DNA from: Candidatus Omnitrophota bacterium
GTDB lineage: Bacteria; Omnitrophota; Gorgyraeia; Gorgyraeales; Gorgyraeaceae
DNA length: 46,416 nt
Assembly: GCA_030649895.1 (NCBI GenBank)
Contig: JAUSEX010000056.1
Span: forward strand, 1 to 46,416
Direction of reading: 5' to 3'
The notes beneath the pieces were generated by a model that was given only the letters and a program-made list of their open reading frames with translations, ran no database searches and had not been told where the DNA came from. Of this stretch, positions 1,979 through 29,501 are shown piece after piece. Position 1 is the stretch's first letter. Every line of letters starts with the position of its first letter. Made by a program: the position numbers and the translations under genes.

Positions 1979-2702
1979 CGGGCATTTACTGGAAATAAAC
2001 AGTCTGGTTAAATCTTACGACGGGAAAAAGGTTATTGACGGCGTTTGCATGAAGGTGAAACGCGGAGAGGTCGTGGGGTTACTGGGGCCTAACGGCGCAG
2101 GAAAGACCACGACATTTTATATGGTGGTGGGGATATTAAAGCCTGACGACGGAAATATAATCTTTGACGGAAAGGATATAACGAAACTCGCGATGTACCG
2201 CAGGGCGAGGAATGGCATAGGATATCTTTCCCAGGAACCTTCGATATTCAGGAAACTTACAGTTGAGGAAAATATAATGGCTATCCTGGAAACCCTGCAT
2301 CTTCCAAGGCAGGTGCGCATGAACAGGCTTAAAGATCTTTTGGATGAATTAAAGATAAGCCATCTAGCAAAGAAAAAAGCGTACATGCTTTCAGGCGGAG
2401 AAAGAAGAAGGCTGGAGATAACAAGGGCGTTGGTTACGAATCCGCTCTTTATCCTTCTGGACGAACCCTTTAGCGGCATAGACCCCATTGCCGTGGCTGA
2501 CGCGCAGGAGATAATAGGCGAATTAAAAAACAAAGGCCTTGGGATACTTCTTACGGATCACAATGTTAGAGAAACACTTGAAATAACAAATCATTCGTAT
2601 ATAATGGCTGGAGGAAAGATACTTATTGAAGGCACAAAAGAAGTGCTGATCAATGATCCAAAGGCCAGGGAAATGTATTTAGGCGAGAAATTCAAAATGT
2701 AA
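1959..2702 (+). CDS. lptB: LPS export ABC transporter ATP-binding protein LptB
   Basis: This is the cytoplasmic ATPase that powers LPS extraction by LptB2FG. It shows Walker A GPNGAGKTT, a Q-loop (YLSQEP), the signature LSGGERRRLEI, Walker B FILLDEPFSGIDP and the switch histidine in LTDHNVRETL. The length (247 aa) and the LSGGERRR signature are typical of LptB. The start overlaps the end of the LptC-LptA fusion gene by 20 nt with no Shine-Dalgarno, so translation is probably coupled. The permease genes lptF and lptG are not in this window. Confidence 0.95.
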   Translation: MTAQTNNGHLLEINSLVKSYDGKKVIDGVCMKVKRGEVVGLLGPNGAGKTTTFYMVVGILKPDDGNIIFDGKDITKLAMYRRARNGIGYLSQEPSIFRKLTVEENIMAILETLHLPRQVRMNRLKDLLDELKISHLAKKKAYMLSGGERRRLEITRALVTNPLFILLDEPFSGIDPIAVADAQEIIGELKNKGLGILLTDHNVRETLEITNHSYIMAGGKILIEGTKEVLINDPKAREMYLGEKFKM

Positions 2703-2704
2703 CC

Positions 2705-2727
2705 TATCCGACTCCGTGAGTCGGATA
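2705..2727. repeat. Intergenic hairpin, family with 18466 and 34405
   Basis: Perfect 10-bp arms TATCCGACTC (2705-2714) and GAGTCGGATA (2718-2727) enclose a 3-nt loop. There is no U-tract, so it is not a classical terminator. The same core (GACTCcgtGAGTC) recurs at 18466-18509 and, degraded, at 34405-34427. Confidence 0.8.
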
Positions 2728-2752
2728 AGGTAAACGTAACAGGGTTAATTTT

Positions 2753-3835
2753 ATGAAATCATCCGTTAAGAAATTAAAAAATTGCAAACATAGTTTAGAG
2801 GTCAGCCTTTCTGTGGAAAAGGTAAAAAAGGCCTTTGACGAGGTCTACGGCGACTTGGGAAAATACGCCAGCGTGCCGGGTTTCAGGCAGGGTAAGGCGC
2901 CGAGGGATCTTCTGGAACTCCATTATTCCAAAACAGCCAGGGAAGAAGTTTTGAAAAAACTTATACCCGAGACATATGAAAAGATCTTAGAGGAACATAA
3001 GCTTGACCCTATAGGCTATCCTGACGTGACTGATGTGAAGCTCGATCCTAAGGAAGGTTTTTCGTATAAGGCTAGCATTGAAACAAAGCCGGAGATAAAT
3101 TTAAAAAATTATAAGGGCCTTAAGCTTAAAAAGAAAAGCGCAGAAGTAAAGGAAGAAGATCTTGCGAAAAATCTGGAATACATGAGGGAGATGCATTCCC
3201 AGAAAGTGCCCAAAGAAGGCAGCCAGGAAAAAGAAAATGTTCTTCCTAAGCTGGATGATGAGTTTGCAAAAGACCTGGGATTCGAGGACCTGGAGAAAAT
3301 GAAAGAGGCTATAGGGCAGAACCTGAAGACAAAGCTGGAAGAGGAAAGCGAGGCCGATTTAGAGGTCCAGATCATAAATCAGCTTCTGGACAGCGTGGAT
3401 TTCGAGGTACCAGAAACCCTGGTAAATTCCGAGAAAGAAAGATTGATGAAAGACGCTGAGATGCGCATAAAATATATGGAGACGCTCCAGAAAAAAGAAA
3501 ATCCTAAAGATCCTTCAGCGCCTGCGGCACTTCAGGATCAGGAAAATTCTTCGAATTTTCCTGGTAAAAAAGAATTGGAAGAGAATGCAGCCAGGCAGGC
3601 GATTCGCCAGGTAAAGGCATTTTTTATGCTGGACAGGATCGCGCACGCCGAAAAGATTTACCTGAAAAAAGAAGAGATCGACGTATATATAGAGGGATTG
3701 GCCGCTCAGTACCATAAGACAAAAGACGAGATTAAGGGTTATCTGGAAAAGGGCCATGGAATGGATGAGCTGGCTGTAAACATGAGAAATAAAAAGGTGA
3801 TGGAGTTTTTATTAAAAGAAGCGAAGATAGAGTAA
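2753..3835 (+). CDS. tig: Trigger factor, apparently lacking the PPIase domain
   Basis: This is a ribosome-associated chaperone for nascent chains. The N-terminal ribosome-binding domain carries the signature GFRQGKAP (about residues 43-50). After the N-domain ends (about residue 150) the sequence runs almost directly into the C-terminal substrate-binding arm (LPKLDDEFAKDLGFEDLEKM). The FKBP-like PPIase domain that normally lies between them seems absent, so the protein is 360 aa instead of about 430-450. A linker at residues about 245-275 (ENPKDPSAPAALQDQENSS) is coded by inverted-repeat DNA. clpP follows, the usual neighbour of tig, but clpX does not come next. Function as a holdase without PPIase activity is inferred. 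Confidence 0.85.
   Translation: MKSSVKKLKNCKHSLEVSLSVEKVKKAFDEVYGDLGKYASVPGFRQGKAPRDLLELHYSKTAREEVLKKLIPETYEKILEEHKLDPIGYPDVTDVKLDPKEGFSYKASIETKPEINLKNYKGLKLKKKSAEVKEEDLAKNLEYMREMHSQKVPKEGSQEKENVLPKLDDEFAKDLGFEDLEKMKEAIGQNLKTKLEEESEADLEVQIINQLLDSVDFEVPETLVNSEKERLMKDAEMRIKYMETLQKKENPKDPSAPAALQDQENSSNFPGKKELEENAARQAIRQVKAFFMLDRIAHAEKIYLKKEEIDVYIEGLAAQYHKTKDEIKGYLEKGHGMDELAVNMRNKKVMEFLLKEAKIE
3510..3561. repeat. Inverted-repeat insertion inside tig
   Basis: Two adjacent hairpins lie in frame within the trigger factor gene. One is an imperfect pair at 3510-3522/3526-3538 (ATCCTTCAGCGCC against GGCACTTCAGGAT, 10 of 13 pairing). The other is a perfect palindrome at 3541-3561 (GGAAAATTC, TTC loop, GAATTTTCC). 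The first resembles the GATCCTTCGCTTCGTTCAGG segment of the intergenic repeat at 3954-3980. This suggests a mobile palindromic element that landed in the coding region without breaking the frame. Confidence 0.6.
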
Positions 3836-3842
3836 TTAACAG

Positions 3843-4011
3843 TTCTCGACTCTCCGCCTACGGCGGATCGCTCGAACAATATTTTTCGAGCGGAGTGAAC
3901 GACCGGAGGAAGTACTGAGCGAAGCTAATGTACGAAGCGAACCAGATCCTTCGCTTCGTTCAGGATCATCCTGATCCTGAGGAGTGAAACGACGAAGGAC
4001 GAAGTCGAAAA
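3843..4011. repeat. Composite intergenic palindromic repeat
   Basis: The tig-clpP gap is filled by nested inverted repeats. TTCTCGACT (3843-3851) pairs near-perfectly with AGTCGAAAA (4003-4011). TCCGCC/GGCGGA lies near 3852-3866, CGCTCGAA/TTCGAGCG at 3869-3876/3885-3892, and TCAGGATCA/TGATCCTGA at 3960-3980. The outer arms and the CGCTCGAA hairpin recur in the scpA-scpB gap at 35171-35258, so this is a dispersed family. No U-tract or ORF is seen. Confidence 0.75.
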
Positions 4012-10129: not shown

Positions 10130-12217
10130 ATGTTATTCTTAGCACCTGTTGGGTCCATATTAGCGCTAGGTTTTGCGTTTTATTTGGCAGTATCAATACT
10201 CAGGATGGATGAAGGAAGCGATAAAATGAAAGAGATAGCCTCTGCGGTCCGCATAGGAGCAAAGGCGTATTTAAAGAGACAGTATCTTGGCGTAGCTTTA
10301 TTTTTTATAGTAGTATTTTTTATCCTGCTGGCGCTTTCTTTGTTCAAATACCTGCCCATATTTGTTCCTTTCGCATTTTTGACAGGAGGGTTTTTCTCTG
10401 GGCTTTCCGGTTTCATAGGCATGACAATAGCTACGCAGTCTTCAGGCAGGACCGCTGCGGCGGCGATGAAGAGTTTGAATTCCGGCTTGAGAGTTGCGTT
10501 TTCAAGCGGGGCTGTCATGGGCCTTACGGTCGTAGGGCTTGGGCTTCTGGATCTTAGCATTTGGTATTATTTTCTAGATTGGTATTATTCAGTGCACCCT
10601 CTGTCTATAGGCGCAGATAAAATAGGAGCAATTACTTCTACAATGCTCTGTTTTGGAATGGGCGCAAGTTCTCAAGCGCTTTTTGCCCGCGTAGGAGGGG
10701 GCATTTTTACAAAAGCAGCGGATGTCGGGGCTGATCTTGTAGGGAAAGTGGAAGCAGGGATACCGGAAGATGACCCTAGAAATCCAGCTGTTATCGCGGA
10801 TAACGTAGGAGATAATGTAGGCGATGTAGCGGGCATGGGCGCGGATCTTTATGAATCTTACGTGGGTTCTATTGTGGCAACTTCTGCATTAGGCGTTGCA
10901 GCAGGGTTGGGCCTGGCCGGGGTTACTGTCCCAATGGTTATGGCAGCTATTGGAGTTATAGCTTCGATAATAGGGACGTTTTTTGTAAGAAGCAAAGAAG
11001 ACGCAAACCAGCTGGTCCTATTGGCAGCCTTGAGAAAAGGGGTATTCACAAGCTCTCTTATCGTGGCGATAGCGTCTTATTTTCTTATTAAATATACTCT
11101 CGGGCTAGAACACATGGGAGTTTACTGGTCAGTTATATCGGGCCTTGTGGCAGGTGTTTTAATAGGGCTTTCAACTGAATACTATACATCAAGCACTTTT
11201 AAACCTACTAAAACAATCGCGGATGCGAGCGTTACCGGACCTGCGACAGTTATTATAAGCGGTATTGCGGTAGGCATGATGTCAACCGCTGTTCCGGTTC
11301 TTGTAGTCTGCTCCGCTATTATGGCAAGCTATTTTTTTTCAGGCGGGGCTAGTAATCCCAATGCAGGATTATACGGCATAGCAATTTCAGCAGTGGGTAT
11401 GCTTTCCACTCTTGGGATTACTCTTGCGACAGACGCTTATGGGCCTGTTGCTGATAATGCGGGAGGAAACGCAGAGATGTCTCATCTGCCGCCTGAAGTC
11501 AGGAAAAGGACAGATGCGCTGGATGCTTTAGGAAATACAACAGCTGCTACTGGGAAAGGTTTTGCTATTGGTTCAGCCGCGTTAACAGCTCTGGCCTTGA
11601 TTGCCGCTTACAGGGATCAGGTGTATTTATTCGGCAAGACAATGGATTTAAGCCTTATGAATCCAAGCGTTTTAATAGGCTTGTTCGTAGGAGGCATGCT
11701 CCCGTTTTTATTTTGTTCAATGACTATGCGGGCGGTTGGCAGGGCAGCTACGAAGATTGTCATAGAAGTAAGAAGGCAGTTTAAAGAGATAGCAGGCCTT
11801 ATGGAAGGAAAGGCAAAACCTGATTATGCGGCCTGCGTAAATATAGCTACTGTGGCTGCGCAGAAGGAAATGGTAATGCCGTCGCTTTTAGCTATAGTAG
11901 CTCCTATAGTAGTAGGGCTATTTGCCGGCATTAATGCAGTGGGTGGACTTCTTATGGGCGCAACTGTTACAGGGTTTGTGCTTGCAGTTATGATGGCTAA
12001 TTCAGGCGGGGCGTGGGATAACGCGAAAAAATATATAGAAGAAGGCCATTGCGGAGGCAAAGGTTCTCTCTCTCATAAGGCAACAGTTGTGGGCGATACG
12101 GTGGGGGACCCGTTTAAAGATACGTCAGGCCCGTCTTTAAATATTTTGATAAAACTAATGTCAATGGTCTCGATTGTATTCGCGTCTTTTATTGTAAAGA
12201 ATACGTTATTTAAATGA
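10130..12217 (+). CDS. hppA: Membrane-bound ion-translocating pyrophosphatase
   Basis: This is an integral membrane pump coupling PPi hydrolysis to H+ or Na+ export. It is 695 aa with many transmembrane segments. The catalytic motif [19 protein letters not shown] is intact, as are [15 protein letters not shown] and [14 protein letters not shown] near the C-terminus. The segment [10 protein letters not shown] has Ala where potassium-independent enzymes have Lys, so a K+-dependent form is predicted. The ion pumped is not decided here. AAAGGAG precedes ATG 10130. It lies directly behind purA, whose pathway, like tRNA charging, releases PPi. Confidence 0.96.
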
Positions 12218-20260: not shown

Positions 20261-20289
20261 TTGACAAGGAAACGTTTACATGCTATACT
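20261..20289 (+). promoter_or_regulatory. Near-consensus sigma-70 promoter of the giant gene
   Basis: TTGACA (20261-20266), an exactly 17-nt spacer and TATACT (20284-20289), with TGC just before the -10 (extended -10 type), lie 55 nt before the start codon. AAGGAG (20333-20338) is well placed for ATG 20344. It is among the strongest promoters in the window, comparable to the rRNA promoters. Confidence 0.9.
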
Positions 20290-20343: not shown

Positions 20344-23300
20344 ATGCATTTCAAATCATTCAAGAAAATAGCCTCAATTATTATCCTGACTGTATTTATA
20401 GCTAATAATAGCATATATGCTGCGCCTGATTCTAAATCCATATTCAAGAATAAAAAAGTCAACTACCAGAAAATCAGCGATAAAAACGAAGGGGTGGTGG
20501 AGCAGAAAAAAACCGTGCTTGCCGGACAAGACGTCAAAGAGTCTGAATCCAGAAAAAAGGAAGCCCGAAAGATGCTTTCAGCGCATCTTTCCGACATATC
20601 TCTTATTCATATACCCCAAGAGCTAGGGAAAGTCGTAGAGGTGTACCAGAACCCGGGCCGGGATAATTCCAGGCTTATAGTCAATATCCAGGACCTTCAT
20701 ACAAACCCCGAGGCAACTATTAATTTAGCTGGCATATTGGAAATCCTGATTAAAGATTATAATCTAGGCCTGGTCTGCTCGGAAGGGGCAGAAGGGGCAG
20801 TGGACACATCCAGCGTTTCAAGTTTTCCGGATCCTGAAGTCAGGAAAAAAGTGGCAAAGCTATTCGTTGATTCAGGGGAGCTTACAGGCGAGGAATACCT
20901 GTCTATTACTAAATATCCGAATCTCGCGATATGGGGGATTGAAGATAAAGATATATATTTTAAAAATATCGAGGAATTTAACAGCATAATGAAATTTAAC
21001 CCGGATTCCAGGACTTTTATATCCCAGGCTAAGAAAGCCCTGGAAGGATTAAAGCCCAGGATATACTCAAAAGAACTTCTCGAAATTGACCGGAAAGAAT
21101 CCGATTATGAGAGCCAGGCAGTAGAAACAGCCGACTATTTGAAATACCTGTCAAGTTACGGCCAGAAATTAAATATCCCAACGATTAGCTATAAAAATAT
21201 CAGCCTTCTTGATGAAACCATGGATAAGGAATCGAAGATTGACCAGCAAAAGATTACGCAGGAATCTCAAAACCTGTTATTAAGTTTACAATCAGCTATT
21301 GCCGCAAAATCCAACCGCAGCGATATGGATACATTAATGGCTAAGGCAAGCCTTTTTAAAGACCAGAAGATTTCGCCTTTTTCATTCTACAGTTACCTGA
21401 AAGACCTTGCCGATAAATATCTGAAAGACCAGATATCAAAGTATCCGAATCTGATGGATTTTATAGATTATCTTACCAAGGTAAACTCTCTGGATTCCAT
21501 CAAGCTTTTTGTTGAAATTGAAGACCTGTCTTATGAAATAAAACAAAAACTCGCAAGGAACGAAGAAGAAAAAACGCTCACGCAGGCCCTGCGTAATATA
21601 AAATTCTTAGAAGGATTTTTTAACCTTAAGATTTCAAACGAAGAGCTTGATTACTATCTGCAGAATAAAGATTCCTGTAAAGTAGCTTTCTTTGAGGCTT
21701 TCCTGAAGCCTGCAATTAAAAAATATAATCTTTCTGATTTTGTGGATTTTAATCCTGGCTTGATAGATCCTCACCTTCAGGAAATAGAAGATTTTTATAA
21801 AACAGTAAAGGCGCGCGACCTGGCCATGTTTATTAACACTGTTTCTGAAGTAGAGAAGCGCAATATAAAGGTAGCTACCCTTATTACAGGCGGTTTCCAT
21901 ACGCAGGGCGTAACCAAGCTCCTGAAAGAAAAGGGCTATTCCTATATAGTTATTTCTCCATATTCTAAGACAGACATAGATGAAGAAAATTACCATTTCC
22001 TCTTATCAGGCAAAAGAAAACCTATCGAAGATTTAATAAAGCAGCTTGATCAGCCTGAGGCGATAAATAAAGTTTCTGCAAATACGAATTTAAGGGTTCC
22101 CATGACCTTTGACAGAGGTTCTTCAGTCGAGAGGGTTGAGAAAACGCTAGAAAGAGCAGCTGCGTCAGGAAATGGCCTTGTTCGTAATGAAACATTTGAG
22201 ACGGCTATTTCTGAATCGTTTGATCAATATGCCGCTATCCATGGGGCAGACAAGAGGAATCATGGATTAGACTTAAGCATGGAACGCCTGGGTATTGATA
22301 ACATAAGGATACTTCTTGATGATAGCGTATTATCTGAAAAACAAAAAAGCTTGGTAAGAAAGCTATTAGCGTTTGGCAAAGGTAGCGTGTTTTCGTTCTG
22401 GGGAGAATTGGATGTAGCGCAAAAGAAAAATTTATTAAATCAATTAGCCATGGTAGATCTGGAAGGCATAGAGAGTCTTTACAAGGCGTTTATTATGGAT
22501 AAAAAAGAGGGGATAGATATTGAGGTAACGGAAAACAATGTTACAATGCCAAAAGTCGTAGATATAACAGATACGAACGGACCAGGTTATGCAAAGGCGG
22601 AGAAGGCCGGAGAAGGCGCGTTCAAAAACGGAGAAGTCTGCTATCTGGAACTCGCAGGCGGAAGCGGTTCGCGTCTTGGGTATGAACATGCAAAAATAAT
22701 ATTCAAGGCATCTCAAGTCATGAACATGTCCCTTGCCAGGATGAGGGCGAAAAAAATCAGGGCGCTTGCAGAAGAATACGGTAAGCCTGTTCCATGGCTT
22801 ATTATGACAAGTGACGTTACGGATAGAGAAGTGAGAGAATTTTTTAAAAATCATATCGTAAATAATAAATATTTTGGAGAGGTGCCAGTGCAATGGGTTG
22901 GATTCGTAAGGCAAAGAGTTATGCCTCAGATTACTGACACAGGGGAATTTATATTAAACCAGGCGAAAGATAGTGTTATTGTGGGAGGATTTGGCCATGG
23001 AGACGCAAGAGATTATGTGCTAAAAGATCAGGGCGTTTTGAACTGGCTTACTAAAAATTTTAGAGTAAAGTATATTGTGATGTTAAACGTAGATAATGCT
23101 TATGTGCCAGGAGCTCCTTCCGTGGGATACCATATTATTGCTACAGAAAATCTGGCACCAGGTACTGAAAAAATGAGCGCGCACTCTGTAGAGAAAACAG
23201 GGCCAGGAGAAAGAGTCGGGATGAATGTTTTATTTAACGGGAGAAGCGCGGTTATAGAGTATAATCAAGTTCCCGATAAACTTTTGTATATGACGTATAT

Positions 23301-26300
23301 ACATGTTCTTGATAATGATAAAATAGTTTTTCTTAAAGAGCGCGGAAAGTACAGGATATTAAAGGTTAGTCAATTAAAAGACAACTATAGAGATGTTTTT
23401 CAGGATCCGGGATGGGTAAGAAGCAATCTTGTTACTGTTAATGATCTTCCTGAAGACGTAAGTATAGATTATCTTGGAAGGCAGTATATTAAAGATATGC
23501 TAGTAAGGGCAAAGCTGTGGCTTTTACTAGGAAATACAAATGGCCTTATATGGAGCATGGATTCTTTTACTGACCAAAGATATCCATTGCCAGAATTGCC
23601 GGTAGTTGTAGCCAAAAATAAGGCAGTTGACGGCTATCATCCTGAAACAGGGGAGTTTTTTACAAAAGGTGACGGAACGCTTAAGGCAAGTAAGTTTGAG
23701 TGCATGGCGTTTCAAGGATTTTATCATAATCCTGTTATGGGCGCTTTTATTCTTGTGCCTAGGCCGGGATATTTTGCCCCAATAAAAGAGGCGAGAGGAC
23801 AGGATACCCCGGAAAGGGCAAGACAAATCTTTGCGGAATACGACGCCTCTTTGCTTAATAATGTTAATTGGATGGTTGCTACAGATGCGACAGTTGAGTT
23901 AACCCCTGCATTTGCTTTTTTAGACGGGAGATATTTGACGCATAAGATGGGCCAAGGTGGGGTTATTGGAAGGGGTTCCAAATTGCATTTAAGCGGCAGT
24001 AATGTTCATATAGGCGATATGTTTAATATGGGCGAAGGCAAGACTTTTATTCTAAGATTTAACGATGAGCATAATAAAGCGGCAGGCGCGCAAATTGGCA
24101 ATAACATAGAAGTTCAAGGAGATATTTCAATAACAATTAGTGGTTCCGGTAACTTGATCATAGATGACGACGTAAGAATTACTGGATTTCAAGAATATAC
24201 TATAAATAGTAATGAAACTTTGCGTATAACTAAAAATGGGCCTGTGTGGAAAACTAAGAAAGCAGATCAAGTTTTGGCATCGAATGAGGGAATGGATAGA
24301 TTTGCTCAATGGGATAAGTGGATTAGCATGAGCGTTTCAATAGGTGATTTAAATGATGATATGTTCAGAGATTATGATTATAGGTCTATCGGTAAAACTC
24401 TGGCACCAGAAATGGTATTTCGTTTTGGTTTAGTGTGGGCGAATATGGCTTTAGAAAAGGCAAAAGCTAATGGTTTTACTAATCGCAAAGTTTTGATCGC
24501 AAGAGATGCTAGAAAAATAGAGCCGGAATTAGTAGAAGCTTTAGTAGCTGCTTTAAGATTTGCAGGACTCGATGTTATTTATGTTGCAGCTGATGGGCCA
24601 AACGCAGTTACATCTTATTCGTGGGCGGCGCAGGAGCATAAGCCATTGATGAGTATTTTCTTAACAGCAAGTCATGTATCTCGGCCTAAGGAGATAATTG
24701 TAAGAGGTTTTAAGGTAGCTATTATGGATGAAAGCGGTACTTTGCAAAGCTTAACTACCAAAGAAATAATGCAGACATCAAAAGCAGCTGTGAAAGACCT
24801 TATAGTAAATCCAGCGAAGATTAATACGATTAAGAGTATGCGACAAGGTGAATTCATGCCAAGTAATGTTGACGCTAATTGCGTTAAGATGTGCGTTCTT
24901 GTAGGCAAGACTGTTGCTTCAGGCAACTCTATCTATAATTTAGCGAGAGAACTAGGGGCATCTGAATCCCCTGTAACTGTTTTGGATGATTGGGATCGGA
25001 GAATTGGGCATTTAGAGCCTTTAAAAGGCATGAAGATGATAGTAGAGGGAGCTCATACGCCAAGCGGTAAATTAGCAGCCGATACTTTTATAGGATTAGG
25101 CGCAGAAGTAATTTTAATAAATGGCGATATTCAGGAGATAGAAGGCGAACATGAAGCTGATCCGTCTATTCCTAAGAATTTAACTGGATTAGAACGCGCA
25201 ATAGCTGCGCATAATGCTGATTTTGGCATAGCATTCGATTTGGATGGAGATAGGGGGGCTATAGTTGTTCCCGAGAGATGGAAGGCTACAGTGGGAACAA
25301 AATTTCACTTGCTGGCTCCAGATAATTTAATAGTTTCCATGCTTACGTATATGATCAGAAGAGGTGGATATGACCAGGCAGTTATCGGTAGAGAAGTGGG
25401 GGTAATACGAGATGTGCTTGGAACATTTGCCGTAAATGACATGGCTTCGAGATTGGGTATTAAGGCATTCCAAACAGATGCAGGCTATGTATTTTTAAAG
25501 GCATTGAGAAGACAGTTGTTGCCCAGGGGATATATTGTTCCGGTTTATGGCGAACGTTCAGGGCATTGCTGGCTGGATGTTACAGGAGAATTCGAAAATC
25601 CTATAGCTGTTGCAGTATTATTTGCTACAATGGTAAAAGAAAGTAAATATAAAGATAATGCAACTCAATCAAAAAATCCTTTTTTAGAAGCGTATGAAGA
25701 AAATATCATACCATATCTGCAGTCAACAAGATTCCAGCCGTTATTTCATCCAAAATTTTTATCAGAACTTTCTTCGGATTTGAGGAATAATACGGGATGG
25801 ACTTATAATGCTGAAAGGCCTACAAATCCTCCTCAGGCAATAATAGCGCTGGGAAAAGATTTAGGTATTCAAAAATTACAACAGGAATTTAAGGTAGGCA
25901 ATTTGTATCTTACGCCCGCTGGTAATCTAAGGATAAAAGAGTTTAATACATATCAAGATGTTCCCGATGAAGGAGGATTATATAGATTTGCTGATATTGT
26001 ATTTGAGCAAGATGGGAAATTTGCAGGGAGATTTGTGTTTAGGGCTTCGTCAAATGATCCTACGTTTGTATGTTCGTTTGAAACGCCTCTGATGGATGGC
26101 GAAACTTATATTTCAGCTTCTTTGGATAATAGATATCTATCTATAGGAGGAGTGGTTCTTGATTGGCTAGAAAGTAACGGGATTGCAGGAGTTACAGGCG
26201 ATATTAAGTATCCAAATAAAGATGCCACAGAACTGGTGGTAACGAAATATCGGGCTAAATTAGCTTCTGCAAGAGGCGATGCAGGCAGGGGTTCTGTATT

Positions 26301-26352
26301 CGGGCTTTTGAATACAATGGCAAGGCGGCTAACGCGGCAGGGAAATATTTGA
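20344..26352 (+). CDS. Giant secreted protein: TIKI/ChaN-like + UDP-sugar pyrophosphorylase + phosphohexomutase
   Basis: A 2002-aa protein with a signal peptide (residues 1 to about 26, KKIASIIILTVFIANNSIYA). Residues about 90-560 show QDLH(119), SEG with Glu147, and GGFHTQGVTKLLKEKGY (His519), a pattern like TIKI/ChaN/EreA-type domains. Residues about 760-1290 look like a UDP-sugar pyrophosphorylase: LAGGSGSRLG (770-779), a MTS segment, GHGD (884-887), VDN (916-918), then a beta-helix-like tail. Residues about 1338-2000 match alpha-D-phosphohexomutases: FRDYD (1341), TASH with phospho-Ser1443, metal loop DLDGDR (1632-1637), GERSGH (1736-1741). The frame ends at UGA 26350, and protein-like coding continues in the +1 frame into the next ORF. 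The enzyme domains normally work in the cytoplasm, so the signal peptide is odd. Domain names are inferred from motifs. Confidence 0.8.
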   Translation: MHFKSFKKIASIIILTVFIANNSIYAAPDSKSIFKNKKVNYQKISDKNEGVVEQKKTVLAGQDVKESESRKKEARKMLSAHLSDISLIHIPQELGKVVEVYQNPGRDNSRLIVNIQDLHTNPEATINLAGILEILIKDYNLGLVCSEGAEGAVDTSSVSSFPDPEVRKKVAKLFVDSGELTGEEYLSITKYPNLAIWGIEDKDIYFKNIEEFNSIMKFNPDSRTFISQAKKALEGLKPRIYSKELLEIDRKESDYESQAVETADYLKYLSSYGQKLNIPTISYKNISLLDETMDKESKIDQQKITQESQNLLLSLQSAIAAKSNRSDMDTLMAKASLFKDQKISPFSFYSYLKDLADKYLKDQISKYPNLMDFIDYLTKVNSLDSIKLFVEIEDLSYEIKQKLARNEEEKTLTQALRNIKFLEGFFNLKISNEELDYYLQNKDSCKVAFFEAFLKPAIKKYNLSDFVDFNPGLIDPHLQEIEDFYKTVKARDLAMFINTVSEVEKRNIKVATLITGGFHTQGVTKLLKEKGYSYIVISPYSKTDIDEENYHFLLSGKRKPIEDLIKQLDQPEAINKVSANTNLRVPMTFDRGSSVERVEKTLERAAASGNGLVRNETFETAISESFDQYAAIHGADKRNHGLDLSMERLGIDNIRILLDDSVLSEKQKSLVRKLLAFGKGSVFSFWGELDVAQKKNLLNQLAMVDLEGIESLYKAFIMDKKEGIDIEVTENNVTMPKVVDITDTNGPGYAKAEKAGEGAFKNGEVCYLELAGGSGSRLGYEHAKIIFKASQVMNMSLARMRAKKIRALAEEYGKPVPWLIMTSDVTDREVREFFKNHIVNNKYFGEVPVQWVGFVRQRVMPQITDTGEFILNQAKDSVIVGGFGHGDARDYVLKDQGVLNWLTKNFRVKYIVMLNVDNAYVPGAPSVGYHIIATENLAPGTEKMSAHSVEKTGPGERVGMNVLFNGRSAVIEYNQVPDKLLYMTYIHVLDNDKIVFLKERGKYRILKVSQLKDNYRDVFQDPGWVRSNLVTVNDLPEDVSIDYLGRQYIKDMLVRAKLWLLLGNTNGLIWSMDSFTDQRYPLPELPVVVAKNKAVDGYHPETGEFFTKGDGTLKASKFECMAFQGFYHNPVMGAFILVPRPGYFAPIKEARGQDTPERARQIFAEYDASLLNNVNWMVATDATVELTPAFAFLDGRYLTHKMGQGGVIGRGSKLHLSGSNVHIGDMFNMGEGKTFILRFNDEHNKAAGAQIGNNIEVQGDISITISGSGNLIIDDDVRITGFQEYTINSNETLRITKNGPVWKTKKADQVLASNEGMDRFAQWDKWISMSVSIGDLNDDMFRDYDYRSIGKTLAPEMVFRFGLVWANMALEKAKANGFTNRKVLIARDARKIEPELVEALVAALRFAGLDVIYVAADGPNAVTSYSWAAQEHKPLMSIFLTASHVSRPKEIIVRGFKVAIMDESGTLQSLTTKEIMQTSKAAVKDLIVNPAKINTIKSMRQGEFMPSNVDANCVKMCVLVGKTVASGNSIYNLARELGASESPVTVLDDWDRRIGHLEPLKGMKMIVEGAHTPSGKLAADTFIGLGAEVILINGDIQEIEGEHEADPSIPKNLTGLERAIAAHNADFGIAFDLDGDRGAIVVPERWKATVGTKFHLLAPDNLIVSMLTYMIRRGGYDQAVIGREVGVIRDVLGTFAVNDMASRLGIKAFQTDAGYVFLKALRRQLLPRGYIVPVYGERSGHCWLDVTGEFENPIAVAVLFATMVKESKYKDNATQSKNPFLEAYEENIIPYLQSTRFQPLFHPKFLSELSSDLRNNTGWTYNAERPTNPPQAIIALGKDLGIQKLQQEFKVGNLYLTPAGNLRIKEFNTYQDVPDEGGLYRFADIVFEQDGKFAGRFVFRASSNDPTFVCSFETPLMDGETYISASLDNRYLSIGGVVLDWLESNGIAGVTGDIKYPNKDATELVVTKYRAKLASARGDAGRGSVFGLLNTMARRLTRQGNI

Positions 26353-26353
26353 G
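26339..26353 (+). other. Candidate +1 frameshift site (or frameshift mutation)
   Basis: The giant ORF ends with CAG GGA AAT ATT TGA G. Sliding one base forward at ATT gives TTT then GAG, and the +1 frame stays open through 26411 into the isomerase ORF, reading EVLASFTSDQLEALPANVK. An AGGGA Shine-Dalgarno-like run sits 3 nt before the ATT, the same layout as prfB (AGGGGG, 3 nt, CTT TGA C). The +1 frame is closed upstream by TAA at 26330, so the shift must happen between 26333 and 26352. A sequencing error or a real mutation would look the same. Confidence 0.55.
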
Positions 26354-26410
26354 GTCCTAGCGAGTTTTACTAGCGATCAATTAGAGGCGTTACCTGCTAA
26401 TGTAAAGACA

Positions 26411-29296
26411 ATGTTGGACAGGGGCAGGATTAAAGAGGAAGAGGCGGGAGAGATGAGAATAGTAGTGAATAATGTAAAAGAGAAACAAGGAGCCGCTGTT
26501 GTTGCTGTAAAATTAGCTACTCCGCTTAATGCGAATGGGAATAGCAGCATGGCCGCTTCTTTTCTTAGGGGGGGGTATGGCCAGGAAGGCTATGGCGTAG
26601 CAGAAAAGGCGTCTATCCACGGCTCATTTGCGCTAGATGGAAAACAGGGCTATTATGCAGAGGGCGGAAAAGAAGCTTTTTTAAGTACTGTTAATAGTAT
26701 GCGAAAGTTTTTTGAAAGACGCGCAGAAAGATTAGGTAAGCCTATAAAATATGTTATTAAGACCGGTATCGGTGGACAACATACGCCTTTCCAGGGTATT
26801 GCAGATGCGTTTCAGGTTATAGATGCCAGGACAGGGAAAGTTGTAGGGGAATATGAATTAGGTAAGAATTTTGAAGTTTCTATGGCTAGCGTACTTAGAG
26901 ATCTTAAAGCAGATTGGGACCAGGTAGCGGTTATCCCCAGTTCAAAGTCCGGTTCAACTGATGAAACCATGATGGTTTTCGTGGAGATATTCTATGCCTT
27001 ATTAAAGAACCAGGCGATAAAAGAAGGAATTGACGAATCGAGGTTTGCAGATACAGTGCTTGCTACTCTACATGAAGTGAATTTTATAAACGGCAAGGAG
27101 CAACCTGGCAAAGACCTGTTTAAAGTTGATATGGACAGATTTGGAACGGATAATCTGATTACACTGATTGCTAAAAATGCAGAAAGTTTGGGTATCTCGC
27201 GAGCGCAGATAAAAGGCATCTTTGGGAGAGTTCTCGGAAATATGTTTTTTGAGACAACTGACAGGGTAGACCAAAGCAGGCTTTCAGCTTTTATTCGTAA
27301 TTCAGGTCTGGATACAGAATTAGGAGAAGATGCGCCTGGGTTTGGGGCGATGTTTGATAATGTGGGGGGTCGCTGGACAGGCGATCTTCATATGATGACA
27401 TTTTTAGCCTATCATGGCCTTGACGCTGAAAGGTATTGGGAGATACGCAGGGAAGGCATAGCTAAGTTTAGAGAAGGGAGCCATGCAGCCAATATAATAG
27501 GCAATAAGATTTTAGATGAAGGCGTAACGGATATTGCTTTAGTAGTGCCGGATGAATTTTTCTGGTTTGGGAAATCTAATGAACAAAATTTTAATGAAAG
27601 CATATGGCAGAGTGGTTTTGCAAATCTTGTAGCTATCAGGCAGTCGCAGTGGGATGCGCAAAAAAAGCATTACGCTGATGATCCAAGAAAACTTGTAATA
27701 AATATGTCTAATTTACCGATCTCAGCGGATTCATTTAATGTATTTAAATTTGATACGCCAGATTTCAGCAAGCTTGATAACCAGGGACTGGCAGATGCTT
27801 TTGCGGAGCTCTTTACTGCTTTTTACGGGATAACGACTACTGTTGGAGACCGTTTAATCGACAGGGCGCTTAAAGAAGCTGGATATACGGCAGATGATGT
27901 TGATCTAAATGACGTAAATAACCCCGCTACAAAGATTGTCCAGCAGAATCTTTATGTGCGGCAGCCATATGTGGAATTCGGCAAAGGATTTCTGGAGGCC
28001 GGGTTAAAGGCCTTACAGGAAAGAGAAGCTGCTAAGCCGGGCGCGATTAATAAGGCGTTTGAAGGCACTGAAGAAGAGAATGAAGGCAAGAAAGGCATAA
28101 AACAATTAGCCAGAGAAAAGACACTGGAAACAAATATCGAAAGCTTAAATCTCCCTTCTAATATCGCTAATTTAAATGAACTAGCAGGCGTAATACGTGA
28201 AGCCAGAGAATTCGCTAAAACAAAGGGCAGGAAATTTGTACCTTTAATATATCTAGAAGGCGATAGGTTTTATGATCTAAGAGATTATCTGATATCTGCG
28301 GGTATTGAGTGGGTTATGCAGGGAACAGGCGATCAGCATATTAGTTATCAGCAGGTCCTGGCTCAGCCTCAAAAATACCTGCCGTTTATTATCTCGTTTG
28401 TTCCTGAAAAAGCGCTTCCCGGTAAACTTGCGATAGGATTCGCCAAGGGATATTTAAATAATGTGAGCCCTCACATGGTGCGAGATCTATTTGCCGACGC
28501 CTCTTATAGGGCATTAACAGAATCCAGAAAAGATCAGGGCGGCCTTGGGTTATTTTTGAGAATAATTGATTCTGACGCAAATATTGATATACTTAAAAAA
28601 GCAACAGATATTGCTATAAAATTGTCCGAAGGCGTGGATTCATTTGGCGAGACAGTTTTGTTGGAAAATGCCATGGGCGCAGAAAGGACGCAGGCTATAG
28701 CAGCGCTTCAAAATGGAGATGAGCTTTTAAAAATAGCCCGCGAACCAAGGGAGCATATTTCCGGCAGAAAAGAAAAAACAGAGGCCATGTTTAAGTATTA
28801 TAGGGGCGCTATGGTTGCTTATCAGAAAGCGTTAAATATTATAGAAGGCAAAAACGGTTTAGGAGACATAGAGACGCAGGCTGAGGCTGGCATAGGGCGC
28901 GTTACAAATGAGGTAAAAAATAAAATCATAGCTATTGCCGCTGTTAATATTCTCCATAAAATAGGCGATGGAAATGGAAAAGAATGGTTCAGGGAATGGA
29001 TAGCCAAACAACCTGATAATGTTGCGGTGGTAATAATAGCGGCGAATATAGAGGAATACAAAGAAGTGACAGATCTTCAAGACGTAGCGTACCTACAGCT
29101 TGTGGCCCTACCGGCTGATTTGGCTAATTCAGACATAAGTAAAGCCGGCATTCAGGATTACCAGATACTTAAATTAAATACTGAAGAAAGAAACGCTTTC
29201 TTTTTTAATTTAGAGGTTTACAAGGAAGGTGTCAATCTTGGGACACGGCATCTACTAGACGAAAAGACAGTCAGGGCAATAGCATCCGGCGTATAA
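26411..29296 (+). CDS. Phosphoglucose isomerase-like ORF, probable continuation of the giant protein
   Basis: A 961-aa ORF with phosphoglucose isomerase features: TGIGGQHTPFQGI (about 118-130, like GIGGS), the SIS-type phosphate loop SSKSGSTDET (177-186), NVGGRWTG (317-324, like GGRxS) and NESIWQSG (395-402) in the place of the catalytic Glu motif, then GTGDQH (about residue 640). The last 250 residues are not recognised. ATG 26411 has no Shine-Dalgarno, and protein-like sequence in the same frame extends back to about 26333. I think the isomerase is the C-terminal part of the upstream protein, for about 2984 residues if joined. No signal peptide of its own is seen. It would interconvert fructose 6-phosphate and glucose 6-phosphate, feeding the mutase and pyrophosphorylase domains. 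Confidence 0.75.
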   Translation: MLDRGRIKEEEAGEMRIVVNNVKEKQGAAVVAVKLATPLNANGNSSMAASFLRGGYGQEGYGVAEKASIHGSFALDGKQGYYAEGGKEAFLSTVNSMRKFFERRAERLGKPIKYVIKTGIGGQHTPFQGIADAFQVIDARTGKVVGEYELGKNFEVSMASVLRDLKADWDQVAVIPSSKSGSTDETMMVFVEIFYALLKNQAIKEGIDESRFADTVLATLHEVNFINGKEQPGKDLFKVDMDRFGTDNLITLIAKNAESLGISRAQIKGIFGRVLGNMFFETTDRVDQSRLSAFIRNSGLDTELGEDAPGFGAMFDNVGGRWTGDLHMMTFLAYHGLDAERYWEIRREGIAKFREGSHAANIIGNKILDEGVTDIALVVPDEFFWFGKSNEQNFNESIWQSGFANLVAIRQSQWDAQKKHYADDPRKLVINMSNLPISADSFNVFKFDTPDFSKLDNQGLADAFAELFTAFYGITTTVGDRLIDRALKEAGYTADDVDLNDVNNPATKIVQQNLYVRQPYVEFGKGFLEAGLKALQEREAAKPGAINKAFEGTEEENEGKKGIKQLAREKTLETNIESLNLPSNIANLNELAGVIREAREFAKTKGRKFVPLIYLEGDRFYDLRDYLISAGIEWVMQGTGDQHISYQQVLAQPQKYLPFIISFVPEKALPGKLAIGFAKGYLNNVSPHMVRDLFADASYRALTESRKDQGGLGLFLRIIDSDANIDILKKATDIAIKLSEGVDSFGETVLLENAMGAERTQAIAALQNGDELLKIAREPREHISGRKEKTEAMFKYYRGAMVAYQKALNIIEGKNGLGDIETQAEAGIGRVTNEVKNKIIAIAAVNILHKIGDGNGKEWFREWIAKQPDNVAVVIIAANIEEYKEVTDLQDVAYLQLVALPADLANSDISKAGIQDYQILKLNTEERNAFFFNLEVYKEGVNLGTRHLLDEKTVRAIASGV

Positions 29297-29393: not shown

Positions 29394-29423
29394 TTGACAT
29401 ACTTTCATAAAGGGTAGTATACT
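29394..29423 (+). promoter_or_regulatory. Sigma-70-type promoter of rimP-nusA-infB
   Basis: TTGACA (29394-29399), an 18-nt spacer and TATACT (29418-29423) drive the translation-factor operon. The first base of the -35 lies two bases after the T-run of the preceding terminator. Confidence 0.85.
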
Positions 29424-29453: not shown

Positions 29454-29501
29454 TTGAAAGTGGGTGTGGTATGCCCGCTTTTTTTGTTTTATGATGGATA
29501 A
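29454..29501 (+). promoter_or_regulatory. rimP leader: attenuator hairpin and possible leader peptide
   Basis: The leader holds a terminator-like hairpin: AGTGGG (29459-29464), a 9-nt loop, CCCGCT (29474-29479), then seven T (29479-29485). It lies between the promoter and rimP. A short frame from TTG 29454 to TAA 29499 (LKVGVVCPLFLFYDG) is preceded by AGGGGG at 29441-29446 with 7-nt spacing, runs through the hairpin and overlaps the rimP start. A ribosome there would prevent the stem. Leader terminators before rimP are known in other bacteria; the leader peptide is my inference. Confidence 0.6.

Follow-up and report, generated by a model that had tools for sequence, protein, structure and literature searches.

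Giant open reading frames are known from Omnitrophota, among them one of 39,678 aa in Velamenicoccus archaeovorus; most have few annotated domains, and adhesion and polysaccharide degradation have been discussed for them (PMC10066038). The locus described here, from a window (the whole stretch of DNA that we analyzed) of 46,416 nucleotides, shares with these ORFs the phylum, the great length and the predicted extracellular location, but it belongs to a set of chains that have a signal peptide and a head module in common and carry identifiable sugar-phosphate and glycolytic enzymes. Its pyrophosphorylase-like domain shares the sequence family, the LAGG..RLG loop and an aligned lysine with the UDPGP family (UAP1/AGX, UDP-sugar pyrophosphorylases), but it has GHGD, as does a chain of genome G001, where the aligned UAP1 chains have GNGG, and it is fused into a predicted exported chain. 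The phosphohexomutase has the order of domains I-III and the four active-site loops of PMM/PGM and GlmM, from which it differs in being divergent (below the equivalog cut-offs), predicted to be exported and a paralogue of an ordinary enzyme. The third enzyme shares fold and catalytic motifs with phosphoglucose isomerase (PGI, PF00342), but at ~12% identity it is unseen by Pfam and its segments follow another order. Finally, the head is tentatively likened to the EreA/ChaN/TIKI superfamily by GxxH-like motifs and by weak matches to the folds of EreC and ChaN; it differs in its large helical insertion and in serving as the head of giant chains.

Pentafunctional fusion enzymes of the AROM type resemble the locus in carrying consecutive pathway steps on one chain, but they are cytoplasmic and biosynthetic. 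Central sugar-phosphate enzymes are likewise regarded as cytoplasmic. A literature search with preprints outside its scope returned the giant ORFs of the phylum and no exported sugar-phosphate polyenzymes. The author of an earlier sequence-only reading of this DNA knew of no described system of such form. A prior mention is possible among bioRxiv preprints, including a giant-gene preprint cited by PMC12057145.

Layout and domains of the locus

The 9-kb locus lies between proS and rimP/nusA/infB (neighbour families confirmed) and consists of two ORFs on the same strand, whose coordinates and domain order the sequence-only reading had given correctly:

20261..20289, plus strand: predicted sigma-70-type promoter (TTGACA-17-TATACT, extended -10 TG; 11 of 12 consensus matches)
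20344..26352, plus strand: ORF-A, 2002 aa, with signal peptide, EreA/ChaN/TIKI-like head, UDPGP and phosphohexomutase
20344..20421, plus strand: predicted Sec-type signal peptide, MHFKSFKKIASIIILTVFIANNSIYA with cleavage before APD (sequence; rough n/h/c-region score)
20650..22092, plus strand: EreA/ChaN/TIKI-like head module with a long helical insertion (profile A2, AF2, weak fold matches)
22090..22104, plus strand: LRVPM linker motif of the LR[VIP]P[LMS] class, just 5′ of the first enzyme
22471..23280, plus strand: UDPGP domain core (Pfam PF01704; PDB UDP-GlcNAc pyrophosphorylases)
24274..24294, plus strand: LASNEGM motif of the LASN class, at the UDPGP-mutase border
24361..26200, plus strand: phosphohexomutase (Pfam profiles, PDB matches, motifs)
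26300..26410, plus strand: frame change (stop-to-stop map)
26411..29296, plus strand: ORF-B, 961 aa, with PGI-like domain and C-terminal module; coding frame possibly from ~26348
26462..28666, plus strand: segment-swapped PGI-like domain (AF2 and Foldseek, 23-sequence alignment, hhalign)
28850..29293, plus strand: C-terminal module ending ASGV (BLASTP matches to the ends of the L014, L019, L020, L021 and L022 proteins)

The strong promoter that had been claimed is supported by this near-consensus match. As a second predicted promoter, also with 11 of 12 matches, stands at 29394, after the locus and before rimP, the locus is probably its own transcription unit. The claim of a strong terminator of its own did not hold up: we found no convincing terminator directly 3′ of ORF-B, and the best terminator-like site (29456-29482) lies 3′ of the second promoter. 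Elsewhere in the window, positions 10130-12217 code for a sodium-translocating membrane pyrophosphatase.

The signal peptide was called by a rough n/h/c-region rule of our own making together with conservation. By this rule the N-terminus of ORF-A has a positive n-region, then an h-region and then an A-x-A-type cleavage site, and a similar segment directly precedes the head in 27 of the 29 closed ORFs examined, which supports the signal peptide of the sequence-only reading. The head module itself (~560 residues) carries the motifs IQDLHTN (20686-20706), EGAEG (20782-20796) and GGFH (within 21883-21903) and was modelled by AF2 with a pLDDT of 80. A fold search with it matched EreC, 3b55 and ChaN weakly (E ~0.1 to 1.5; prob up to 0.57), with EreC and 3b55 among the best matches.

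The UDPGP region scored 60.4 bits against PF01704, for which the curated cut-off is 22 (E 1.7e-16; 4.7e-18 in the genome search), and it matched PDB UDP-GlcNAc pyrophosphorylases at 6e-20. Its motifs are LAGGSGSRLG (22651-22680), the lysine in HAKIIF and GHGD (22993-23004), and the nucleotide loop and catalytic lysine align (LAGGSGSRLG...HAK with LAGGQ..RLG...PK). The complete domain probably extends to ~24200. In the mutase region, PGM_PMM_I (4.9e-9) and PGM_PMM_II (6e-8) lie above the cut-off and domain III is weak, just below it, with the order kept; PDB phosphomannomutase/phosphoglucomutase was matched at 1e-15. All four active-site loops are intact, namely the catalytic serine loop (TASH, 24664), the DxDxDR metal loop (DLDGDR, 25237), the GExSG loop (GERSGH, 25549) and the phosphate loop (RASSNDP, 26041). 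In the profile searches proposed in the sequence-only reading, the UDPGP and mutase regions thus gave significant matches; the head and the PGI-like part had no Pfam match.

The isomerase-like domain and the frame change

By sequence, the PGI-like part of ORF-B had no significant match in Pfam, NCBIfam or PDB: PF00342 did not match the native or the segment-reordered sequence, and profile A3 found nothing among PDB sequences. The isomerase-like region claimed in the sequence-only reading was nevertheless recovered by predicted structure. An AF2 model built from an alignment of 23 relatives (pLDDT 88, pTM 0.88) was compared with PDB by Foldseek: 48 of its best 50 matches are phosphoglucose isomerases and the remaining two come from a single phosphosugar isomerase, of which they are chains; target TM reached at most 0.56. 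The motifs SSKSGSTDET (26939), GGRWT (27365), NES (~27593) and GIGGQ are present, and the catalytic K, R, E, H and K, which we take to be K210, R272, E357, H388 and K518 in rabbit numbering, are invariant in all 23 aligned sequences. The order of two further motifs is inverted, as the VELGK segment (VEFGK, 27971) precedes GTGDQH (28322), opposite to canonical PGI, which has GTNGQH first and VELGK second, as in L072 (389 then 515). In hhalign comparisons the N-terminal part paired with PGI (E 4e-6), and the top match of each swapped segment was its expected canonical partner, weakly (0.013 and 0.005). All six segment orders of the consensus scored almost the same, a consequence of the local alignment covering the N-terminal part alone; since permuting the consensus, which we tried as a route to recognition by Pfam, still gave no PGI match, the swap rests on motif order and per-segment alignments and not on profile score. 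From the model and these alignments we conclude that ORF-B carries a predicted PGI-fold isomerase with its two C-terminal segments exchanged, for which we do not claim membership of PF00342. By BLASTP, the C-terminal module that follows has relatives at the ends of several further chains with the head.

The sequence-only reading had also placed a frame change before this domain, which proved real. The frame of ORF-A ends at 26352 and that of ORF-B, offset by +1, is open from 26333. A codon-bias scan showed the bias switching from the first frame to the second at ~26300-26370, 5′ of the first start codon of ORF-B, which makes a frameshift in one gene likelier than two genes. Moreover, the orthologous mutase and isomerase are fused in one chain in G001 (L014/L025; 75% and 74% identity), and in a genome of another family (G075) the whole order occurs in one uninterrupted frame of 3323 aa (L057), with a signal peptide, the head at 57-538, UDPGP at ~1150-1451, the mutase at 1883-2365 and the PGI-like domain at 2379-3095; these fused chains make a single-chain frameshift the better reading. 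ORF-B lacks a signal peptide, which would speak against its export if the frame change were a true gene boundary. Two observations count against a single gene. ORF-A ends in QGNI, in the manner of other chains of the family, and the PGI-like domain is encoded separately, without a signal peptide, in three genomes of this genus. Separate genes without a signal peptide are among the things that the sequence-only reading had set against its own proposal, and this result, for the PGI-like part, speaks in part against it. Further stand-alone PGI-like genes lacking a signal peptide occur in two other records (L034 and L035), and L033 holds a mutase-PGI fusion that lacks one too. Most likely, to judge from the frames and their orthologues, the split between ORF-A and ORF-B is a frameshift inside one ancestral gene, either real or from assembly. 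A programmed frameshift at the slippery-looking GGGAAAT 5′ of the ORF-A stop was rejected because a -1 shift there enters a frame that stops at once and not that of ORF-B.

Head-bearing chains across the phylum

The sequence-only reading reported a single protein, which is indeed present, but as one member of a phylum-wide head-bearing set that is predicted to be exported. Its proposed search for the same architecture in other Omnitrophota yielded L057; profile A2 detected the head module in 85 of the 145 genomes sampled from the phylum, with a genome often holding many copies. The giant size is supported as well, as signal peptide and head lead frames of up to 35,113 aa. UDPGP matches came from 31 of 146 genomes and from none of 14 control genomes; 29 of the 31 have a match inside a frame of at least 1000 aa. 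That the same trio follows the head in L057, a single open frame from another family, supports the view that its linkage, as read from these genes, is not due to chance. By BLASTP, neither the UDPGP nor the mutase region of the window chain matches its counterpart in L057, so that the same combination is built from different subfamilies, which speaks for selection acting on the combination itself. A chimeric assembly or a random gene fusion, conceivable in a draft of 59 contigs with a frame change at the mutase-isomerase border, is very improbable: it is largely refuted by orthologues, since the same head-enzyme chains occur in independent records of other genera and families, and long open frames and purifying selection speak against it too.

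Related enzyme groupings occur in G001, G095 and G150. In a chain of G046, the middle of which had no match among PDB sequences, the assignment of UDPGP rests on collinearity with L057. Within the family of the window, the slot between proS and rimP holds different chains in different species. By Pfam these carry enolase, glutamate dehydrogenase, UDPGP, mutase, phosphofructokinase, glucosamine-6-phosphate isomerase, aminotransferase and phosphomannose isomerase, as well as GNAT, fructose bisphosphatase, class II aldolase and GlpX-type fructose bisphosphatase, and also ROK kinase, ribulose-phosphate epimerase and carbamoyltransferase. In L014 (G001 C72, 3214 aa) the enolase, within residues 1625-2180, is circularly permuted, with the C-terminal barrel before the N-terminal domain (canonical 165-430 corresponds to 1631-1924 of the giant chain, and canonical 80-156 to 2073-2173), and by eye it keeps SIEDG, GDD, K.NQIGT, SHRS and KTG. 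In the same signal-peptide chain, the halves of glutamate dehydrogenase are reversed in order (residues 618-1008).

Several further observations were made in these genomes. L014 has, at ~1390-1560, two strongly hydrophobic segments around HEMGH, like an M50-type membrane metalloprotease (by eye and hydropathy). In G010, a chain that has both a signal peptide and the head module (L055, C57) contains a SecA_DEAD-like domain at 1159-1430, and a head-bearing chain of 4565 aa from the same genome (L056, C9) an ARMT1-like damage-control phosphatase domain at 3452-3848. Canonical PF00342 isomerases lie inside very long frames in G102 (C1:258393-259931; E 2e-231; 19,582 aa) and G189 (C6; 17,444 aa). 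A weak UDPGP match in G113 (C1:84225-84569) falls in a frame of 39,687 aa, near the 39,678 aa of the Velamenicoccus giant ORF (PMC10066038). Besides the locus chain, the genome of the window yielded just one further protein with the head module (L054, G000 C2:1244-2698), a signal-peptide protein of 485 aa whose gene adjoins another signal-peptide gene.

Predicted export and activity, and possible roles

Separate genes of ordinary length in the genome of the window code for a phosphohexomutase (474 aa), an enolase (445 aa) and a bifunctional PGI/PMI (359 aa); by their sequences, the locus enzymes are duplicates and not the housekeeping copies. Cysteine makes up 0.27% of the locus chain vs 0.93% in the cytosolic genes of the window (p 1.8e-4), and 0.34% of the family chains pooled (p 7e-9), with the exception of the giant-chain enolase region, which is as cysteine-rich as cytosolic enolase. 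One sibling chain has a PKD domain, which is typical of extracellular proteins. Part of this evidence bears on whether the chain leaves the cytoplasm at all. With an uncleaved N-terminal anchor it could form a membrane-tethered cytoplasmic metabolon that channels F6P to UDP-sugar for envelope synthesis, where its substrates are present, and within this genus some PGI-like genes lack a signal peptide, which shows that the enzyme is able to function in the cytoplasm. Nevertheless, the n-region, h-region and A-x-A-type site predict a chain on the outside, cysteine is depleted, and mutase, enolase and PGI are already encoded by the separate genes, so we regard such a metabolon as unlikely.

The sequence-only reading had offered as its own alternative that the enzymes were repurposed as binding or scaffold domains. 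Catalytically dead domains reused as surface binding, adhesive or scaffold modules would suit the strong divergence from the housekeeping enzymes, and a role as adhesins has been proposed for other giant proteins of Omnitrophota (PMC10066038). The evidence disfavours this: the PGI catalytic set is invariant in the 23 sequences, the mutase motifs are kept, dN/dS is ~0.1 (0.08-0.10 for head, mutase and isomerase), and the pathway order is matched in two families. We consider dead domains quite improbable.

The reading that we lean towards, drawing on computed domain identities, order, intact catalytic motifs, purifying selection, recurrence and the separate ordinary genes, is that the locus encodes a Sec-exported working polyenzyme; export, catalysis, reaction direction and place of action are what we infer. 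After export via the signal peptide, the EreA/ChaN/TIKI-like head would lead three working enzymes that jointly interconvert fructose-6-phosphate, glucose-6-phosphate, glucose-1-phosphate and a UDP-sugar outside the cytoplasm, with metabolites of host, prey or lysate as the most plausible substrates. The isomerase, mutase and pyrophosphorylase reactions are reversible: starting from F6P the chain could produce UDP-sugars, or in the opposite direction it could turn UDP-sugars back into hexose phosphates. Its role would then be the salvage of UDP-sugars and hexose phosphates or the supply of activated sugars for polymers of the cell surface. Neither UTP nor ATP is expected to be present outside the cytoplasm, and nucleotides there would need a host, prey or lysed-cell source. 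A host or prey source is made plausible by the host-dependent traits of Omnitrophota (PMC10066038) and the predatory contact described for a relative (PMC13153191). ATP import via a translocase was also considered and is unsupported, as no ATP/ADP translocase was found in the source genome. Of the self-contained assembly line for activated sugars that the sequence-only reading placed outside the cytoplasm, the enzyme families, signal peptide and linkage are supported, and the direction and the source of UTP or pyrophosphate lie beyond the data.

The locus would belong to a head-bearing exported set that jointly carries much of upper glycolysis. More tentatively, and with clear reservations, the whole phylum might run an extracytoplasmic central-sugar metabolism on host or prey metabolites, using exported polyenzymes dedicated to it, which would share a common EreA/ChaN/TIKI-like head and would in part be glycolytic enzymes duplicated in circularly permuted form. 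If true, central-sugar enzymes exported throughout the phylum would amount to a novel form of extracellular metabolism. The enzyme identities offer a starting point for assigning functions to the giant proteins of Omnitrophota, which are largely unannotated, and the chains provide naturally occurring permutants of well-known enzymes, namely enolase and, as it appears, glutamate dehydrogenase and phosphoglucose isomerase as well.

Short motifs recur along these chains. The LR[VIP]P[LMS] motif, which precedes the first enzyme, occurs 12 times in 26 chains vs 0.15 expected from shuffling, and the LASN-type motif, in several cases near domain borders, 10 times vs 0.11, odds that are somewhat flattering because the patterns were noticed in the same chains that were counted. 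Such linkers would suit an effector-like polyprotein, in which they and the head let the chain be split into individual enzymes that act within a cell of the host or prey: LRVPL and LASNxGL both recur much more often than chance predicts, the former 5′ of the first enzyme and the latter several times close to domain borders, the head weakly resembles a hydrolase superfamily, and the predatory contact of the relative would fit. There is no sign of cleavage, no secretion system or host was identified in this analysis, and the enzyme nature of the head is weakly supported, which leaves this explanation improbable next to the exported polyenzyme. A C-terminal [ST]-x-[VIL], reminiscent of a class I PDZ ligand, ends 15 of 20 family chains vs none of the 31 other window genes, the pattern again having been noticed in the chains counted. 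Judging by their recurrence, the shared short motifs and C-terminal tags may mark processing or sorting. The tags are family-specific, with [ST]-x-[VIL] in the family f1 and often [KR]SL or similar in others (f29).
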